64,000 nt of DNA from an uncultured Aquimarina sp. (lineage in GTDB: Bacteria; Bacteroidota; Bacteroidia; Flavobacteriales; Flavobacteriaceae). The number at the start of each line of letters is the position of its first letter. The stretch's first letter is position 1. The position numbers and the translations under genes are program-made. Positions 55,831-63,848 of the stretch are shown here, in pieces. Below the pieces are notes generated by a model. It saw only the letters and a program-made list of their open reading frames with translations, made no database searches and had not been told where the DNA came from. The stretch is from positions 124,001 through 188,000 of the forward strand of contig CANMLS010000001.1 of assembly GCA_947498785.1 (NCBI GenBank), given 5' to 3'.

Positions 55831-55871
55831 ATTAAAGGAGTTCTTATCTATTTAATAAGAACTCCTTTAAT
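55831..55871. terminator. Bidirectional terminator between the M28-like gene and thrC
   Basis: A perfect 17-bp stem, ATTAAAGGAGTTCTTAT (55831-55847) with its complement at 55855-55871, with a 7-base loop. The last codons of thrC (stop at 55844) are within it, so it must end transcription of both genes or slow the last thrC codons. Confidence 0.85.
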
Positions 55872-57136
55872 GTTTCATAATTTTTTATAGGTATACTGTG
55901 CTTTTCCTTATTAATTACTTTTTGAATTTGTGAAGGAATTTTTACCTTAATGTTTAATGTTTCCTCTACGACATCTAGAAATTTAACAGGATGTGCTGTT
56001 TCTAAAAATATGCCATACTCAGTAGATGTTAATTCTTGTTTCTGTAATCCTAAATATCCTACTGCACCATGAGGATCAGCCACATAACCTGATTTTTCAT
56101 AAATTTCCTCCATTGCTTTTTTAGTCTGTTTATCATCAAAACTGTACGCAGAAAAATTACTTTTTAGGAGAGCAAAATCATTATCAAAAAGTTGTTGAAT
56201 TCTTATAAAATTACTTGGATTTCCAACATCCATGGCGTTAGAAATTGTAGCTTTAGAAGGTTTCGGGTCATATTCAGAAGTTTCTAAATAGCGAACAACC
56301 GTATCGTTAACATTAGTAGACGCTATAAAATGTTTTACTGGTAGACCCAGTTTTTGAGCAACAATTCCGGCACAGATATTTCCAAAATTCCCACTTGGAA
56401 CCGAAAACACAATATCTTTTCCTTTATTTTTTACCTGTTTATAAGCAAATAAAAAATAAAATAATTGAGGAAGCCATCTGGCAACATTTATAGAGTTTGC
56501 AGAAGTTAACTGTTTATAAGTAGTAATATCTGTATCTAAGAATGCAGTTTTTACCATATCCTGACAGTCATCAAAAACACCATCTACTTCTAAGGCTGTT
56601 ATATTTTGACCTAGAGTTGTTAATTGTTTTTCTTGTATCTCACTTACTTTTCCAGTAGGATACAAAATGACTACATTAACACCTTTTACACCCAGAAATC
56701 CATTTGCTACTGCACCACCAGTATCCCCTGATGTTGCAACCAAAACAGTTACATGATTTTCATTATTCCGATTAAAATATCCTAGGCACCTTGCCATGAA
56801 TCGAGCTCCAACGTCTTTAAAAGCCATTGTTGGTCCATGAAATAATTCTAGTGTTCCTGTGGTATCGTCAATTTCTACTACAGGAAAATCAAAACTCAAA
56901 ACATCAGAAAGAATATCTCTTAGTTCTATTTCGGGTATTTCTTCACCTACAAATTGTTGTATTGCCTGAAAAGCAATTTCTATATGATCCAGATTTTCAA
57001 TATTTTCAAAAAATGATTCTGGTAATGATTGTATAGATTCAGGAAAATATAAACCTCGATCAGGAGCCAGTCCTTTTATTACAGCTTCTGAAAATGATAC
57101 ATTTGGCGAGTTTTTATGTAAACTATAATATTGCAT
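55844..57136 (-). CDS. thrC: Threonine synthase
   Basis: The PLP enzyme turns O-phosphohomoserine into threonine, the last step of the pathway. 430 residues, with the PLP-Lys in HGPTMAFKDVGARFMAR near 104-120, SGDTGGAVANGFLGV near 145-159, and PSGNFGNICAG near 243-253. The family opening MQYYSLHKNSPNVSFSEAV is present. It is the last gene of the thrA-thrB-ridA-thrC operon, 22 bases after the RidA gene. Confidence 0.97.
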   Translation of the reverse strand: MQYYSLHKNSPNVSFSEAVIKGLAPDRGLYFPESIQSLPESFFENIENLDHIEIAFQAIQQFVGEEIPEIELRDILSDVLSFDFPVVEIDDTTGTLELFHGPTMAFKDVGARFMARCLGYFNRNNENHVTVLVATSGDTGGAVANGFLGVKGVNVVILYPTGKVSEIQEKQLTTLGQNITALEVDGVFDDCQDMVKTAFLDTDITTYKQLTSANSINVARWLPQLFYFLFAYKQVKNKGKDIVFSVPSGNFGNICAGIVAQKLGLPVKHFIASTNVNDTVVRYLETSEYDPKPSKATISNAMDVGNPSNFIRIQQLFDNDFALLKSNFSAYSFDDKQTKKAMEEIYEKSGYVADPHGAVGYLGLQKQELTSTEYGIFLETAHPVKFLDVVEETLNIKVKIPSQIQKVINKEKHSIPIKNYETLKEFLLNR

Positions 57137-57158: not shown

Positions 57159-57521
57159 TTAGATAATTGCTGAGAATTCTATTTCTACAAGAGTATCTGG
57201 AGAGATTAATTTTGAGACCTCTACCATTGTGGTTACTGGTCTTATTGTACTAAAAAATTCTCCATGCGCTTTACCAACTTCTTCCCATTTATTGATATCT
57301 GTACAGTACATTCTGGTTCTAATAACATTGCTTAAATCTGCACCATATTCTTTTAATGCTTTTTCTGCAATTTTAATAATGGCAATAGTTTGTTCGTATT
57401 CATTTTCACCCTTTGCTGTAGTGCCAGAAATTTCAATTACATCTCCAATTTTTATAGCTCTTGAGTACCCTACAATTTCTTCCCAAGGAGATCCTGTTGA
57501 TATTTTTTTTATTTCTTTCAT
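57159..57521 (-). CDS. RidA-family enamine/imine deaminase inside the thr operon
   Basis: 120 residues of the RidA/YjgF fold: WEEIVGYSRAIKIGDVIEIS near the start, NVIRTRMYCTDINKWEEVGK near 65-84 (with the substrate Arg), and RPVTTMVEVSKL near 94-105 with EIEFSAII at the end. RidA hydrolyses reactive enamines made by PLP enzymes such as threonine dehydratase. Its stop and start overlap its neighbours closely (4-base overlap with thrB), so it is co-translated in the threonine operon, a telling location given that 2-aminocrotonate arises from threonine. Confidence 0.9.
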   Translation of the reverse strand: MKEIKKISTGSPWEEIVGYSRAIKIGDVIEISGTTAKGENEYEQTIAIIKIAEKALKEYGADLSNVIRTRMYCTDINKWEEVGKAHGEFFSTIRPVTTMVEVSKLISPDTLVEIEFSAII

Positions 57522-58450
57522 TGGATTTCTTCAATAATTTTTACTCCGTTACTATTAATTTGTGATACATGAATATCAAATTCAAGTCCTGTTTTTGTGT
57601 ATACTTCTCTTATAGCATCAGCTACATCGTTGGCGGTTTTAAAACCTTTACTTAATGCAAAAATAGATGGCCCTGATCCAGAAATTCCACATCCCAGAGC
57701 ACCATTTTTAATTGCAGCATTCTTTACACTTTTAAATTCTGGAATTAAAATTGATCTGAGAGGTTCTATAATTATATCTTCTAGACTTCGGCCTATCAGA
57801 TCGTAATCTTCTGTGAATAAACCAGCTACCAATCCACCAACATTTCCCCATTGATGAATCGCTTGTTTTAAGGTTATATTATGTTTTATCACTGATCTAG
57901 AATCTGATGTCTTTACTTCGATTTGAGGATGAATTACTGTCATTACAAGATCTTTTGGAGAATGTAACTTTATTACATCGAGTGGATTATAACTTCTTAC
58001 TAAAGTAAATCCACCAAATAGGGCAGGAGCTACATTATCAGCATGGGCATTACCACTGGCTAGCTTTTCTCCTTCCATTGCAAATTTTACTAATTCTTGT
58101 GGTGTATAAGGGTTTTCCAATAGATAATTTACAGCCCAGACTGCACCAGCACTACTTGCAGCACTACTACCAATTCCACTTCCAGCTTTTATTTTTTTGT
58201 ATATTTCTATAGTCACACCTAGATCTTTTTTGTAATCTAGTAGTAATGCCTGAACAGCAACACTGGCTACATTTTTATCTACCTCCATAGGAAGATCAGC
58301 GCCTTCGATTTTGGTAATTCTTATGCCTGGCTCTGATGTAAGTGAAATTAGCATTTCATCACCAACGGTATCCAAACAACACCCTAATACATCGAACCCA
58401 CAGGAAAGGTTTGCGACAGTGGCAGGGGCAAATATTCTAATACTTTTCAT
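57518..58450 (-). CDS. thrB: Homoserine kinase
   Basis: A GHMP kinase that phosphorylates homoserine. 310 residues with IFAPATVANLSCGFDVLG (6-23), the ATP loop KIKAGSGIGSSAASSAGAVW (about 89-108), and the C-terminal GCGISGSGPSIFALS (about 253-267). It starts 5 bases after thrA and overlaps the RidA gene by 4 bases. Confidence 0.97.
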   Translation of the reverse strand: MKSIRIFAPATVANLSCGFDVLGCCLDTVGDEMLISLTSEPGIRITKIEGADLPMEVDKNVASVAVQALLLDYKKDLGVTIEIYKKIKAGSGIGSSAASSAGAVWAVNYLLENPYTPQELVKFAMEGEKLASGNAHADNVAPALFGGFTLVRSYNPLDVIKLHSPKDLVMTVIHPQIEVKTSDSRSVIKHNITLKQAIHQWGNVGGLVAGLFTEDYDLIGRSLEDIIIEPLRSILIPEFKSVKNAAIKNGALGCGISGSGPSIFALSKGFKTANDVADAIREVYTKTGLEFDIHVSQINSNGVKIIEEIQ

Positions 58451-58455
58451 TGTTA

Positions 58456-60900
58456 TTATTTTTTACCAATTCTAATAATATCTGCAAAAATACCAGAAGC
58501 AGTAACCTCGGCTCCGGCTCCGGCTCCCTTTACTATTAGTGGTTGTTTAGGATATCGATCTGTATAAAACAAAACTATATTATCACTTCCTTCAAGGTTA
58601 TAAAAGGGGTGATCAGATGGTATAAATTGTAATCCAACTTTTGCTTTCCCTTCTTCATATTGTGCTACATATTTTAGACGGCATTCTTTTTTATTGGCAT
58701 CATCCAAAATTTTCTTAAAATGATTCTCGTTTTGTTCTACAGATTGAAGAAAATCATCTACACTGGTAGTATCCAAACTTTCTTTTGGTAGAAATGCTTC
58801 ATTTTCTATATTTTCTAACTCCATCACTTTTCCACTTTCACGAGCAAGAATAAGAATTTTACGTGCTACATCAATTCCGCTTAAATCTATTTTAGGATCA
58901 GGTTCTGTATACCCTTGTTGCTGTGCTTGTTTTACTATTTCATGAAAAGTAATACCTTTTTTATAATTATTAAAAACAAAATTTAGACTACCAGATAATA
59001 CAGCCTGTATTTTATGAACATTATCTCCAGATGCAATTAAGTTATTTAATGTGTCTATAATTGGTAAACCAGCACCAACATTTGTTTCATATAAAAAAGA
59101 GGCATTAAATTTTCTTGATAAGTTTTGTAATTCTTCATAGTTAGTATACTCATCTGCACAAGCAATTTTATTACAGGTAACAACAGCCATACTTTCTGCT
59201 AGATAATGTTTATATACTTTGGCAATGTCGGGATTAGCTGTATTGTCAACAAAAATAGAATTACGTAAATTCATTTCTTTTGCTTTGGTAAAAAAATCTG
59301 CAGCATCTGCTTTTTCTCCATTTTCTAATTTTTGCCCCCATGAATCTAAATCAATTCCTCGCTCATCAAAAATCATTTTTCGCGAATTAGAAATGGCAAC
59401 CACTCTTATTTTCAACCTTAGTTTATCCTTAAGGTAGTTTTTTTGCTGTTCTAATTGTTCTATTAATTTACTTCCTACATTTCCGACACCTGTAATGAAA
59501 AGGTTTAATTGTTTAGTTTTTACTTCGAAAAATCGTTCATGTAATGTATTCAAAGCTTTTTTGATATCTTTTTCCTCTATAACAACAGAAATATTTTTTT
59601 CTGAAGCACCTTGAGCAATAGCTCTAATATTAACATTGTTTTTTCCTAGAGTACTAAACATTTTTCCACTTAACCCTTGATGATGATACATATTATCACC
59701 TACCAGAGCTATTATGGCTACATTATCCTCGATTTTCACGGCATCCAATTTATGCTTAGAAATTTCAAATTCGAATGTAGCATCTAACACTTCTTTTGCT
59801 TTTTTTGCATCGATTGCTTCTATTGCAAGGCATATAGAATGCTCTGACGAAGCTTGAGTTATTAAAATAACATTTATGTTTTCGAGAAAAAGAGTTTCGA
59901 ACAAACGTTTTGAAAACCCAGGTATTCCTACCATTCCACTTCCTTCTAATGAAATAATGGATATGCTATCTATATGACTAATTCCAGTAACGGGTTTTTT
60001 TCTATCATTTACTTTTCTTGTAATGAATGTTCCCTGATCATTTGGTTTAAACGTATTCTTTATTAATATCGGAATATCCTTTTCTAAAACTGGATGTATA
60101 GTAGGAGGATAGATTACTTTAGCACCAAAATGAGAAAGCTCCATTGCTTCCTGATATGAGATATGATGAACAGGCTTTGCTTGTTTAACCAATTTTGGAT
60201 TAGCGGTATACATACCACTCACATCCGTCCAGATTTGTAATTCGTCTGCATTAATAGCTGCTGCAAGAATGGCTGCTGTAAAATCAGAACCTCCTCTTCC
60301 TAGTGTTGTAGGTTCCCCGTCCTTTGTTCTGGCTACAAAACCAGGAAAAAGACTTACCCTGTGGGTGTTTTGATCAGCAAACTCTTTAATGTTATCATTG
60401 GTTTCCTTATAATCAATGGTAACCTTTGAATTGATGGTTTTAACAATTAATTCTCGTGAATCTTTTAATATGATATCCACACCTGTTACTTTTGCTGCTT
60501 CTACAATAATATAAGAAGAAAGTATTTCTCCATAACTAGCAATCACGGCAGCAGTTTTTGTAGATAATTCACTTAATAAATAAACTCCTTCACATAAAGA
60601 TTCTAAATCGTTAAGTTGGGCTTTTACTTTACTAATTATAGCACTTTGCGAGATTACAGGAATGAGGCTTTTTATAGCTTTAAGATGTATTTTTTCAATC
60701 TCTATTAGTGTATTTTTGTAATTTTCATTATTATAAGATGCTTCTTCACCAGCTTGTAGTAGCAAATCAGTAATTCCTCCCATTGCAGAAACAACAACAT
60801 ACAAAGGTTGTTTTTCAGATTGTTGTTTTACAATATCTATTACGTTTTCTATTGTAGTTGCATTTGCAACAGAAGAACCTCCAAATTTTAGAACGTTCAT
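58456..60900 (-). CDS. thrA: Bifunctional aspartokinase / homoserine dehydrogenase
   Basis: 814 residues. The aspartokinase domain (1-290: KFGGSSVAN at 5-13, TTLGRGGSDFTAA near 197-209) is followed by ACT regulatory domains (about 300-455) and a homoserine dehydrogenase domain from about 462 (FITGVGNVGSKLIEQL, ETNVGAGLPIIDTLN, GSLNFVFN, PDPKIDLSGIDVARK) to the end. It starts the thr operon, 98 bases below the leader peptide. In this family the ACT domains bring feedback by threonine. Transcription probably is attenuated by the leader. Confidence 0.97.
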   Translation of the reverse strand: MNVLKFGGSSVANATTIENVIDIVKQQSEKQPLYVVVSAMGGITDLLLQAGEEASYNNENYKNTLIEIEKIHLKAIKSLIPVISQSAIISKVKAQLNDLESLCEGVYLLSELSTKTAAVIASYGEILSSYIIVEAAKVTGVDIILKDSRELIVKTINSKVTIDYKETNDNIKEFADQNTHRVSLFPGFVARTKDGEPTTLGRGGSDFTAAILAAAINADELQIWTDVSGMYTANPKLVKQAKPVHHISYQEAMELSHFGAKVIYPPTIHPVLEKDIPILIKNTFKPNDQGTFITRKVNDRKKPVTGISHIDSISIISLEGSGMVGIPGFSKRLFETLFLENINVILITQASSEHSICLAIEAIDAKKAKEVLDATFEFEISKHKLDAVKIEDNVAIIALVGDNMYHHQGLSGKMFSTLGKNNVNIRAIAQGASEKNISVVIEEKDIKKALNTLHERFFEVKTKQLNLFITGVGNVGSKLIEQLEQQKNYLKDKLRLKIRVVAISNSRKMIFDERGIDLDSWGQKLENGEKADAADFFTKAKEMNLRNSIFVDNTANPDIAKVYKHYLAESMAVVTCNKIACADEYTNYEELQNLSRKFNASFLYETNVGAGLPIIDTLNNLIASGDNVHKIQAVLSGSLNFVFNNYKKGITFHEIVKQAQQQGYTEPDPKIDLSGIDVARKILILARESGKVMELENIENEAFLPKESLDTTSVDDFLQSVEQNENHFKKILDDANKKECRLKYVAQYEEGKAKVGLQFIPSDHPFYNLEGSDNIVLFYTDRYPKQPLIVKGAGAGAEVTASGIFADIIRIGKK

Positions 60901-60997
60901 AATATTTTTTTTAATTGAATTAAGGATAAAAAGCTTATGCCTGGTAATACATTTTTAATGAATTACGTACATGTTTTGGCGATACTATATAAATGAA
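60901..60997 (-). promoter_or_regulatory. Untranslated leader between the thr leader peptide and thrA
   Basis: The 97 bases between the leader stop and thrA should hold the attenuator. Candidate pairing is GCC near 60979-60981 with GGC near 60936-60938 plus flanking TAT/ATA, followed by CTTTTT near 60930. It is weak, and I cannot name a definite terminator. Confidence 0.35.
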
Positions 60998-61114
60998 TTA
61001 ACCCCTAAGGGTAGTAATAGTAATTGTAGTAGTACTCATAATTGAAGAAACCTCAGATGTTAATACTGTCCCTAAGATTATTGATAAAGCCGATATGATA
61101 ATGGTACTAAACAT
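60998..61114 (-). CDS. Threonine operon leader peptide
   Basis: A 38-codon frame on the minus strand, too short for most gene finders. It begins MFSTIIISALSIILG and ends MSTTTITITTLRG, with a total of 10 Thr and 8 Ile, seven Thr of them in a nine-codon run near the end. This is the hallmark of attenuator leaders such as E. coli thrL. A -7 element lies 24 bases before its ATG, and the thrA gene starts 98 bases after its stop. Ribosome stalling at low threonyl- or isoleucyl-tRNA would then let transcription continue into thrA-thrB-ridA-thrC. A shorter version could start at the second Met (61039). Confidence 0.8.
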   Translation of the reverse strand: MFSTIIISALSIILGTVLTSEVSSIMSTTTITITTLRG

Positions 61115-61137
61115 TAATTTGCTTTGCTTTGTGAGTT

Positions 61138-61145
61138 CAAATGTA
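61138..61145 (-). promoter_or_regulatory. -7 promoter element of the thr operon
   Basis: TACATTTG on the minus strand puts the start of transcription near 61131, about 17 bases before the leader peptide ATG. No TTG is at -33. Confidence 0.6.
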
Positions 61146-61311
61146 TAATTTTTTACTTTTAGAGAAAATTAAATTAACAGTATTCTTAAACTTTTATTAT
61201 TTCAATAATGAATAACTTGTTTCATTATATAATTCCTAAAAAAACAATAAAAATTGACCTAATTAAAATCATATTTATAGGTTATATAAATAATTATAAA
61301 AATTTAACTTT

Positions 61312-62844
61312 ATGAAGATATTTTCTGCGCAACAAATGCGCATGGCTGATGAGGCTACTATACAATCAGAAAAGATTACATCATTAGAATTAATGGAACG
61401 AGCTGCAGAGCAAGTTTTTAATTTGATTCATAATCAATTACAAGGATCTCCAGTTCTAATTCATGTATTTTGTGGTATTGGAAATAATGGAGGAGATGGG
61501 TTAGTTGTTTCACGATTATTATTAGAACATGGTTATAATGTTAAAACCTATATTGTTAACTTTAGTGAGAACAGATCCAAAGATTTTTTGGTTAATTATG
61601 ATCGATTAAAAGAGATCACAACATCTTGGCCAATACAGCTTAAATCTAATGAAGATTTTCCAACAGTTGGTAGAGAAGATATGATTATTGATGCCATTTT
61701 TGGTATAGGTCTCAACAGACCATTAGTTTCTTGGGTAGCTCAGTTAATAAAACACCTTAATACTTTTAGGTGTTTTATACTCTCTATTGATATTCCATCG
61801 GGATTATATGCTGACAATGTTCCTGATGATCCTAAAGCAGTCATTTACGCAAATATCACAGTTACTTTTCAATTACCTAAATTAGTCTTCTTTTTACCAC
61901 AAACTGGTATGTATACACAGGATCTGAAGGTAATAGATATAGGTCTGGATAGCGAATTTTTAACTCAAAGTCCAGGGGTTGGGATATTAATTAGCAAAAG
62001 TGAGGTGCTTCCTTTATATCGACCAAGGCATAAATTTAGTCATAAAGGAATGTTTGGGCATTGTGTAGTTATAGGAGGAAGTTACGGTAAAGTAGGTAGT
62101 GTAGTATTAGCTACAAGGTCTGCCTTGAAAGTTGGTGCAGGCTTAGTTTCTGCATATTTGCCAGAATGTGGATATGAGGTTATGCAATCTTCAGTTCCAG
62201 AAGCGATGGTAATTACTGATGATGATGATGAATTAGCAGAGATTCATCTTGATTTTAAACCAACGGCTATTGGTATTGGAATAGGGATGGGAACTAATGA
62301 TAAAACTGTAAAGGCATTTGAGAAATTTTTAAAAGAAAATCAATCTGGATTGGTTATAGATGCTGATGGTATCAATATTTTGGCAAAGCATAGTGAATTT
62401 TTTGAAAATCTACCAGAAAAAACGATTTTGACACCACATCCAAAAGAATTACAGAGGTTGATTGGAGAATGGGAAGATGATTTTGATAAAATTGAAAAAA
62501 CAAAGGCATTCTCAAAGAAATATGATTGCATTGTAGTCATTAAAGGGGCTAACTCTATAACCGTTTATGATAGCCAATTGTATATAAATACTACGGGGAA
62601 CCCTGGGATGGCAACTGCAGGAAGCGGAGATGTGCTCACTGGGATAATTACAGGTTTATTATCTCAAGGATATGAACCTCTTCATGCCGCTGTGTTTGGA
62701 ACATATTTACATGGAAGTTCTGCTGATATAGCGATTCAACAAACCAGTTTTGAAGGTTTGTTAGCAAGTGATATTACATCGCATATTGGAGTAGCATTTT
62801 TGGAATTGTTTAAAAGACCAGAGGCAGAAGGGCAAGTAAAATGA
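61312..62844 (+). CDS. nnr: NAD(P)HX epimerase / ADP-dependent NAD(P)HX dehydratase
   Basis: This bifunctional repair enzyme restores hydrated NADH and NADPH. In 510 residues the N-terminal epimerase domain (1-215: CGIGNNGGDGLVVSRLL near 47-63, DAIFGIGLNRPL) is joined to the C-terminal carbohydrate-kinase-like dehydratase (about 225-500: HKGMFGHCVVIGGSYGKVGS, TPHPKELQRL, GNPGMATAGSGDVLTG near 426-441). The fusion is the normal bacterial layout. It is divergent from the thr operon. Confidence 0.96.
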   Translation: MKIFSAQQMRMADEATIQSEKITSLELMERAAEQVFNLIHNQLQGSPVLIHVFCGIGNNGGDGLVVSRLLLEHGYNVKTYIVNFSENRSKDFLVNYDRLKEITTSWPIQLKSNEDFPTVGREDMIIDAIFGIGLNRPLVSWVAQLIKHLNTFRCFILSIDIPSGLYADNVPDDPKAVIYANITVTFQLPKLVFFLPQTGMYTQDLKVIDIGLDSEFLTQSPGVGILISKSEVLPLYRPRHKFSHKGMFGHCVVIGGSYGKVGSVVLATRSALKVGAGLVSAYLPECGYEVMQSSVPEAMVITDDDDELAEIHLDFKPTAIGIGIGMGTNDKTVKAFEKFLKENQSGLVIDADGINILAKHSEFFENLPEKTILTPHPKELQRLIGEWEDDFDKIEKTKAFSKKYDCIVVIKGANSITVYDSQLYINTTGNPGMATAGSGDVLTGIITGLLSQGYEPLHAAVFGTYLHGSSADIAIQQTSFEGLLASDITSHIGVAFLELFKRPEAEGQVK

Positions 62845-62972
62845 TCTTGGATTAGAGAGATTTATTACTTTGTACAAAAAGAATGTAGTTTCTAGGTACA
62901 ATTTTGTGAATGTTTTAGAGTTAATTTTATAGTAATGTAATTACATTTGAATAATAACTTAAAAGCAAAATA

Positions 62973-63848
62973 ATGACAAAAAAGATTTTAGTTTTAGTAA
63001 CTCTTATGTTAGGAGTATTATTCACTTCATGTTCTGGTGATGATGATGGTCCCGCGACAACAACAATACAGTTACAAACTATTGGATTAGAAAACCTTAC
63101 GGGAGGCAGCACTTATCAAGGATGGTTAATTGTTGATGGGCAAGCAGTAGCTACAGATAAGTTTACAGAACCAAATGGAATAGTTAGCTTTAATGTGCTT
63201 GCTACAGATGCAGAAAAAGCAACTCAATTTGTACTTACCATAGAACCTACAGGAGATAATGACAATATTCCTTCTGCTGCAAAAATATTAACTGGTAATT
63301 TTAGTGGCAACGCTGCTCAATTAACTTTTGATACTGTGGTAGCAGATCTTTCCAATACTTCAGGGCAGTTTTTTTTAGCAACCCCAACAGATAATGCTGG
63401 AGGCGTAGATAATAATAATGATGAGTTTGGAGTTTGGTTTATGGATGGAGCAAATGCGGCAGGTCTTTCTCTTCCGGCTCTATCAAGTGGCTGGAAATAT
63501 GAAGGTTGGGTTGATTTTGGAAATAAGATTGTATCTACAGGAACTTTTTCTGATGTTAACACTGTTGATGATGGAAATTTATTTAAAGGTTCTGGTGGGG
63601 ATGTTCCTAGTTTTCCTGGGGAAGATTTTTTGGTTATCCCAAGTCAGGTTTCATTATCTGGAATTTCATTTCCTGCGGAAGTAACTGGTAAAAGAGTATT
63701 CATTACTGTAGAACCATTTCAAGACAATGATCCTAATCCTTTTTTTATAGAACCTCTTAGTGCTATTGCAGGAATTACTACTGGACCAGCTAACCCAGTA
63801 TTGATGACTTCAAATAATGCAGTTCCTTCTGGAAGATTAACAAGATAG
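62973..63848 (+). CDS. Lipoprotein with two anti-sigma-K (RskA)-like beta domains
   Basis: 291 residues with lipobox FTSCSGDDDG (Cys near 20). The mature protein has a tandem repeat of the RskA C-terminal type fold. Copy 1 reads GLENLTGGSTYQGWLIVDGQ with VATDKF, followed by FVLTIEPTGDNDNIPSAAKI. Copy 2 reads SSGWKYEGWVDFGNKIVSTG with TFSD, followed by VFITVEPFQDNDPNPFF. Both end in a loop before a final strand (GNFSGN; GITTGP). It lacks the N-terminal zinc anti-sigma domain and the membrane helix, so it is not a normal anti-sigma factor. Function unknown; it may bind a ligand at the cell surface. Confidence 0.8.
   Translation: MTKKILVLVTLMLGVLFTSCSGDDDGPATTTIQLQTIGLENLTGGSTYQGWLIVDGQAVATDKFTEPNGIVSFNVLATDAEKATQFVLTIEPTGDNDNIPSAAKILTGNFSGNAAQLTFDTVVADLSNTSGQFFLATPTDNAGGVDNNNDEFGVWFMDGANAAGLSLPALSSGWKYEGWVDFGNKIVSTGTFSDVNTVDDGNLFKGSGGDVPSFPGEDFLVIPSQVSLSGISFPAEVTGKRVFITVEPFQDNDPNPFFIEPLSAIAGITTGPANPVLMTSNNAVPSGRLTR

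Follow-up and report, generated by a model that had tools for sequence, protein, structure and literature searches.

In textbook leader-peptide attenuation, the position of the ribosome chooses between two hairpins, one of which is a terminator with a U tract. Among the described systems closest to the locus considered here is the thrL-thrABC attenuator of Escherichia coli, in which a short open reading frame (ORF) carries a run of threonine and isoleucine codons and reaches its stop codon before the first gene. Two further systems involve Rho: in E. coli tnaC, translation of the leader governs Rho, with tryptophan being sensed through stalling at the stop codon, and in lambda tR1, a hairpin is located between two Rho-binding stretches. 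Some attenuators beyond the proteobacteria, the Bacteroidetes included, are said to have been predicted by Vitreschak et al. in 2004 and by Lopatovskaya et al. in 2010, and, to our knowledge, Rho control in Bacteroidota has been little studied. Strong clues for leader-peptide attenuation before amino-acid operons have been presented for Flavobacterium psychrophilum (PMC9723704), a member of the same family as the organism analysed here, and small ORFs reminiscent of leader peptides for Bacteroides thetaiotaomicron (PMC7366714). The suggestion in a preliminary description of the present locus, that leader-peptide attenuation was undescribed in Bacteroidota, is, therefore, only partly right, the former report having preceded it; his and ilv leaders with terminators are, moreover, present in the same genome. 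The main text on F. psychrophilum contains neither threonine nor thrA, and sets out neither a thr case nor a non-terminator mechanism; the accessible text of PMC4833913 and PMC1262725 likewise holds no thr case in Bacteroidota. No description of the thr element was found in the open-licence literature, subscription papers being mostly outside the scope of the search.

The window, by which we mean the whole 64,000-nucleotide stretch of Aquimarina DNA that was analysed, contains a thr cluster on its minus strand. It begins with thrA, encoding the bifunctional aspartate kinase/homoserine dehydrogenase I (58456..60900; NCBIfam NF006959, 1053 bits against a cut-off of 726), which is 94% identical to thrA of Aquimarina algiphila and thereby places the genome in Aquimarina or very close to it. 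This is followed by thrB, encoding homoserine kinase (57518..58450; NCBIfam NF002288 and TIGR00191, both over cut-off), a Rid-family gene in the thrB-thrC interval (57159..57521; TIGR00004 with an E value of 1.2e-12, below cut-off at 48.1 of 106.25 bits), and thrC, encoding threonine synthase (55844..57136; TIGR00260, over cut-off). The genome additionally encodes Rho (TIGR00767, 651 bits, cut-off 509). A second aspartate kinase/homoserine dehydrogenase (AK-HSDH), which is 36% identical, is located at C26:75686-78091 of the same genome (G000; locus L160), close behind another gene and without a leader.

The 38-codon minus-strand frame that had been proposed between a promoter element and thrA is real: it extends from 61114 to 60998, with its TAA stop at 61000-60998, as delimited by translation and the conserved frame. 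From its ATG it encodes MFSTIIISALSIILGTVLTSEVSSIMSTTTITITTLRG, with eight isoleucine codons, as previously counted, and nine threonine codons, one fewer than the ten claimed. The control-codon run, TTTITITT, occupies 61009..61032 (minus strand), its last Thr codon being the ACC at 61012-61010, and 97 nt separate the leader stop from the ATG of thrA. The likeness to E. coli thrL resides in the Thr/Ile run before the same operon; unlike thrL, the leader is longer here (median 35 codons), its last Thr codon is in a hairpin, and there is no U-tract terminator.

The DNA upstream of thrA was examined at 39 genus loci, 113 family loci (from the 114 genomes with a thrA ortholog among 149 searched) and, more distantly, 51 loci of the same order, class or phylum, the window's own locus being counted in the first two sets. 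Locus L011, which is cut before thrA, was dropped, as were L027 and L029 (upstream DNA identical to that of L013 and L004, respectively) and the repeats L190 and L200; the outgroups L009, L010 and L012 were dropped from the genus counts, and L165 was placed among the paralog controls. Alignment A1 comprises 27 of 37 genus rows, and alignment A2 comprises 56 of 72 non-redundant cores. Among 148 loci with a CCC-N-GGG motif, seven had no frame, allowing ATG starts only, that passes through the core and ends within 30 nt; six of the 141 framed loci had fewer than three Thr codons, leaving 135 leaders.

The leader lies behind a candidate promoter -7 box, TACATTTG (61138..61145, minus strand; assigned from its sequence and the consensus), which precedes the leader ATG by 23 nt. 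It conforms to TAnnTTTG, the consensus for flavobacterial sigma-A (PMC9723704), and a box of this type, placed upstream of the leader in the preliminary description too, is found there in all 37 genus sequences examined. In 116 of the 135 leaders with at least three Thr codons (122 of the 141 framed loci), TAnnTTTG lies no more than 60 nt ahead of the leader ATG, and in 19 of the 135 it occurs between the leader ATG and thrA.

As far as comparison of sequences can do so, the 38-codon frame is confirmed as a conserved Thr/Ile leader of the thrA-thrB-Rid-thrC cluster. Relatives do keep the frame: none of the 27 genus rows of alignment A1 interrupts it, and all 52 gap runs that fall inside it have lengths divisible by three, as do only 26 of the 256 beyond its stop. 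Ahead of the hairpin there are 3.91 Thr codons per 14 codons in the leader frame, and 0.21 and 0.16 in the other two frames. Moreover, none of 2000 dinucleotide-preserving shuffles of the 410-nt region reached six Thr within a 12-codon stretch of a frame that starts with ATG (mean 0.98). Taken together, the shuffles, the gap lengths and the other reading frames rule out chance, or an AT-rich artefact, as the origin of the leader. The best Thr count in 12 codons has a median of 5 in the leaders (3-7 for the 5-95% range), compared with 0-3 in the 14 regions upstream of second AK-HSDH paralogs, and the median leader length is 35 codons (5th-95th percentile 26-41; 141 framed loci). Taken over its full length, the RNA shows no unusual degree of structure (z-score 0.14, with 119 of 200 shuffles folding equally well or better). 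We consider the leader to be almost certainly translated, and sensing very probably works by ribosome stalling at its Thr/Ile codons.

The end of the leader coincides with a predicted hairpin, B (61001..61012, minus strand), which was identified by alignment and is near-invariant in the genus: ACCC (61012-61009) and GGGT (61004-61001) flank a TTAG loop. At the genus level, 38 of 39 loci have a CCC-N2-5-GGG motif 50-200 nt before thrA, and at the family level 89 of 113 do; the motif turns up in 12 of 2260 shuffled sequences, in which single-base composition only was preserved. Its distance from the thrA ATG is conserved (median 99 nt from CCC, interquartile range 91-109). The hairpin is also locked to the reading frame: its 5' arm starts with an ACC Thr codon, in the same frame, in 134 of the 135 leaders with at least three Thr codons, although ACT and ACA are commoner at the other Thr positions (ACT 316, ACA 308, ACC 123 and ACG 87). 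The C residues on the 5' side are, in part, a consequence of this ACC codon. The leader stop, which is TAA in 87 cases, TAG in 48 and never TGA, begins within the hairpin in 28 of the 135 and beyond it in the others; that the hairpin might be kept where the frame differs is ruled out, the frame being constant and only the position of the stop moving. A stem of three or four C-G pairs with a loop of three or four bases (five in one case) can be drawn in 135 of 135 leaders, and 128 of these stems have an A-T pair closing the C/G run. Selection of the loci by CCC-N-GGG keeps the drawing of stems from being an independent test; independent tests of hairpin B come from its frame lock and from the counts over genus and family loci. 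A longer lower stem was considered and rejected, as outer pairs 2, 3 and 4 can form in 63, 68 and 40 of the 135, respectively, barely above swapped partners. Three features appear to be new: a hairpin of three to four C-G pairs at the end of the leader, locked to its reading frame, and, as set out below, the lack of a U-tract terminator in a genome that has them behind his and ilv leaders, and the specificity of the element for thr.

Folding of the 141 framed leaders gave a mean pairing probability for hairpin B of 0.80 without a ribosome, 0.70 with a ribosome on the first Thr codon of the run and 0.0004 with a ribosome at the stop; hairpin C (see below) and the start region of thrA hardly changed between ribosome positions. 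The outcome for B is partly expected because it follows from where the ribosome mask was placed. With this reservation, the model shows the position of the ribosome touching hairpin B and not the start of thrA, and hairpin B probably belongs to the switch.

When the hairpin is combined with a leader having at least three Thr in its last 14 codons, the count stays at 38 of 39 in the genus, falls to 80 of 113 in the family and amounts to 18 among the 51 more distant loci, these 18 including genomes of the same order, the same class and the same phylum. In three of the 24 family loci that lack the motif in the 50-200 nt interval (L083, L085 and L096), a similar element is situated further up. At five loci (L128, L135, L136, L142 and L153), thrA lies directly behind a frame ending LFQFLV or alike, which we take to resemble threonine dehydratase, and the leader is absent. 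In another family, the Thr leaders of L209 and L210 end in TTTTG or ITITG; GGGG precedes their stop and CCC follows it, a polarity opposite to that of hairpin B, and no U tract is evident.

Within the sequences searched, the element is tied to thrA. Model R1 (56 cores) matched in 99 of 149 family genomes at E ≤ 0.05; at E ≤ 1e-3, 76 of 80 matches lie within 400 nt before thrA on the same strand, and a further match (G179) precedes a thrA start on another contig, such that 77 of 80 are thr-linked. The remaining three lie elsewhere and look like chance. Across 395 genomes of the phylum, 56 matched at E ≤ 0.01, with stricter filters losing weak matches. Only one of 14 regions upstream of second AK-HSDH genes has CCC-N-GGG, inside a reading frame, and none of the 14 has a comparable Thr run. 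A motif common to other operons was dismissed, since ACCCYTWGGGGTT occurs twice in the genome, the second copy being inside another reading frame; the looser pattern ACCC-GGGT-ATATC is uninformative because its matches in ten genomes are about as numerous as those of a backward control. A known Rfam element was also ruled out: no family reached its gathering score in any of 11 loci, and the three sub-gathering matches in 59000-63000 of the window all lie outside the leader.

The preliminary description had found no strong terminator with a T tract before thrA, and a terminator scan of 60700-61400 agrees, returning no U-tract terminator-like site. In 116 of the 135 thr leaders there is no stem followed by more than five T in 8 nt, and in the other 19, six or seven T in 8 nt follow some weak stem. 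The same scan does find terminators following the his and ilv leaders of this genome, so the thr design is a departure within genomes that do use U-tract terminators. The leader MKNILLHHHHSYILAQAW lies before hisG (L267, contig C1), with a stem and TTTTTTGTTT behind it, and MFNNNNVSVMISIVISSP before ilvD (L259, contig C2), likewise with a terminator behind it; the tails are T6 and T8, respectively. These are leader ORFs as well, but of 18 codons and with terminators, and they are apparently classical attenuators. Tails of seven to eight T of 8 after a stem are seen for both of them, and for five thr leaders elsewhere in the Bacteroidota. The latter (L151, L159, L208, L212 and L213) are classical Thr/Ile leaders before thrA, as here, but they differ in having 15-21 codons followed by a stem with seven to eight T of 8 as a U-tract terminator; L151 and L159 are of the same family and are among its 24 loci without the motif, and the other three are in other Bacteroidota. 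As a separate observation, the region before ilvD in the same genome has two terminator-like stems with T-rich tails (L259, 1023-1048 and 1173-1190), and two consecutive leader-plus-terminator units precede ilvD in three relatives (L256, L258 and L260); these are possibly tandem attenuators. Given that a conserved leader behind a TAnnTTTG box lacks a U-tract terminator, the thr mechanism probably differs from the classical one, as had been surmised.

Beyond hairpin B there is a G-poor, A/U-rich tract and then a C-containing box (60978..60999, minus strand; consensus of leaders tTaattnatTAtATAtCnTCcg), the consensus of tract and box after the hairpin reading tTaatt.atTAtATAtC.TCcg. In 110 non-redundant leaders, G amounts to 4.7% at positions +3..+20 past hairpin B and C to 35% at +18..+26; the window's own tract contains one G. 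The region from -35 to -1 before thrA is G-poor anyway (4.2% G). In the leader RNA, C is about twice as abundant as G, a bias that the upstream DNA does not have, and the Thr codons account for much of the C excess. Further downstream is a second predicted hairpin, C (60944..60966, minus strand), in which GTAATTCAT and ATGTATTAC pair with one mismatch, as suggested by the alignment, folding and a scan of matched versus swapped partners. Its sequence varies and its pairing is kept. A permutation of its two arms (C5 × C3) is circular because C was picked as the best hairpin of each sequence, and the fairer test is the matched-versus-swapped scan of 595 window pairs in 118 leaders: the pair +38..+51 × +56..+69 is the strongest of all (t = -5.0), the most positive t being 3.5. 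Comparison shows, at the level of sequence, a conserved frame with its Thr run, the frame-locked hairpin B overlapping or closely preceding the stop, a tract with little G after B, and then hairpin C, with no U-tract terminator in the window.

We tentatively favour the view that the leader works as an attenuator: where the ribosome stands would decide whether the RNA ends early, before thrA, likely via Rho and not via an intrinsic terminator. With enough charged tRNA-Thr and tRNA-Ile, the ribosome would run to the stop, cover hairpin B and leave; the G-poor RNA would then be open to Rho, and transcription would end before or in early thrA, so that threonine abundance is predicted to shut the thr genes off. 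Were tRNA-Thr short, the ribosome would halt in the Thr run, which lies at the distal end of this unusually long leader; the halted and queued ribosomes would cover the leader, hairpin B could form ahead of the halted ribosome, and RNA polymerase would continue into thrA. Rho may be the off-step, and it is the likeliest of those considered because of the missing U tract, the unchanged thrA start, the C-biased and G-poor leader RNA, and the presence of a rho gene. Unlike tnaC, the control codons here are upstream of the stop, and it is from base composition that we infer the action of Rho. Against this mechanism, a ribosome stalled upstream does not by itself block the binding of Rho past the stop. 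Also to be set against it are the 19 leaders with six or seven T after a weak stem, the 19 with TAnnTTTG between the leader ATG and thrA, the motif in one of the 14 paralog controls, and the low G content that the region before thrA has in any case. In its fullest form the proposal becomes speculative, and we regard it as rather doubtful: Bacteroidota would possess a second, terminator-free threonine attenuator, in which the frame-locked CCC/GGG hairpin holds the last control codon, and ribosomes stalled in a queue on the 35-codon leader would protect the RNA from Rho, whose action would otherwise end transcription ahead of thrA.

One genome, thus, places the textbook design behind its his and ilv leaders, and a thr leader without a terminator, with a frame-locked hairpin instead, before thrA. 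This leader is conserved in most of the family thrA loci examined and is also found in other Bacteroidota. Should the off-step be Rho-dependent, the sensing of amino acids by leader peptides would be joined to Rho in this phylum; the leader also offers a simple point at which threonine synthesis could be tuned in flavobacteria.

Of the other explanations, a classical attenuator fares best, albeit that we consider it unlikely. Here, hairpin C (or B) would serve as an intrinsic terminator whose tail is imperfect, and the Thr run would act as an antiterminator by pairing with the 5' arm of C when the ribosome stalls upstream. The geometry suits such a scheme, since a ribosome at the stop would cover the Thr run just before B, and one stalled upstream would leave it exposed. 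The covariation of hairpin C is in keeping with this, as are relatives such as L094, whose Thr run has a 7-mer identical to one in the 3' arm of C. When the Thr run is paired with the 5' arm of C, matched partners do slightly better than swapped ones (z about -2); p ranges from 0.017 to 0.065 with the window chosen, as one of many tests. The longest helix measures 4.67 when matched versus 4.55 when swapped, which is not significant (p 0.14). The U tract is lacking, both in the window (0 sites) and in the 116 of 135 leaders with at most five T of 8. Two other pairings with the box carry little weight: that of the leader start (z -1.8, p 0.04) is weak among many tests, and that of the Thr run (p 0.0055) is probably trivial because the windows can include hairpin B.

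Also to be weighed is whether hairpin B acts as an RNA polymerase pause hairpin in the A/U-rich tract, with the ribosome opening B and so releasing the pause. A GC-rich stem followed by an A/U-rich tract and a conserved box at a near-constant distance would suit this role, but the direction of control is hard to reconcile with it, in that a ribosome at the stop under plentiful threonine would favour transcription; we therefore think this improbable. Control of the translation of thrA, rather than its transcription, which had been put forward in the preliminary description, could be read into the conserved distance between the leader and thrA (the 99-nt median given above). It finds no support in the folding model, however, where the start of thrA is nearly unchanged between ribosome positions, and hairpin C is about 44-66 nt before the thrA ATG in the window. 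Such a distance is outside the usual initiation region, and we judge translational control to be quite improbable. Finally, that the ORF encodes a small functional protein, with regulation left to an unrelated promoter-level regulator, is scarcely credible, for although an N-terminal part is also kept in the genus (MFST..IS.LL..LGT), the peptide is not kept family-wide outside the Thr run and the hairpin-encoded residues, and the nearly even rates of pairwise difference at codon positions 1, 2 and 3 (0.26, 0.28 and 0.32; 27 genus sequences) are unlike those of a conserved protein and indicate that the leader peptide as such is weakly constrained.

A last observation concerns the flanks of the element. 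Pairing between the 5' UTR and the stretch before thrA gave z -2.2 (p 0.02) over 75 loci, which is weak among many tests. In the genus, AAAGC before the leader ATG (61124-61131) and GCTTT before thrA (60934-60938) are apparently complementary, and the pair seems to co-change (L006 and L013), L006 having GATAAAC and GTTTATC.
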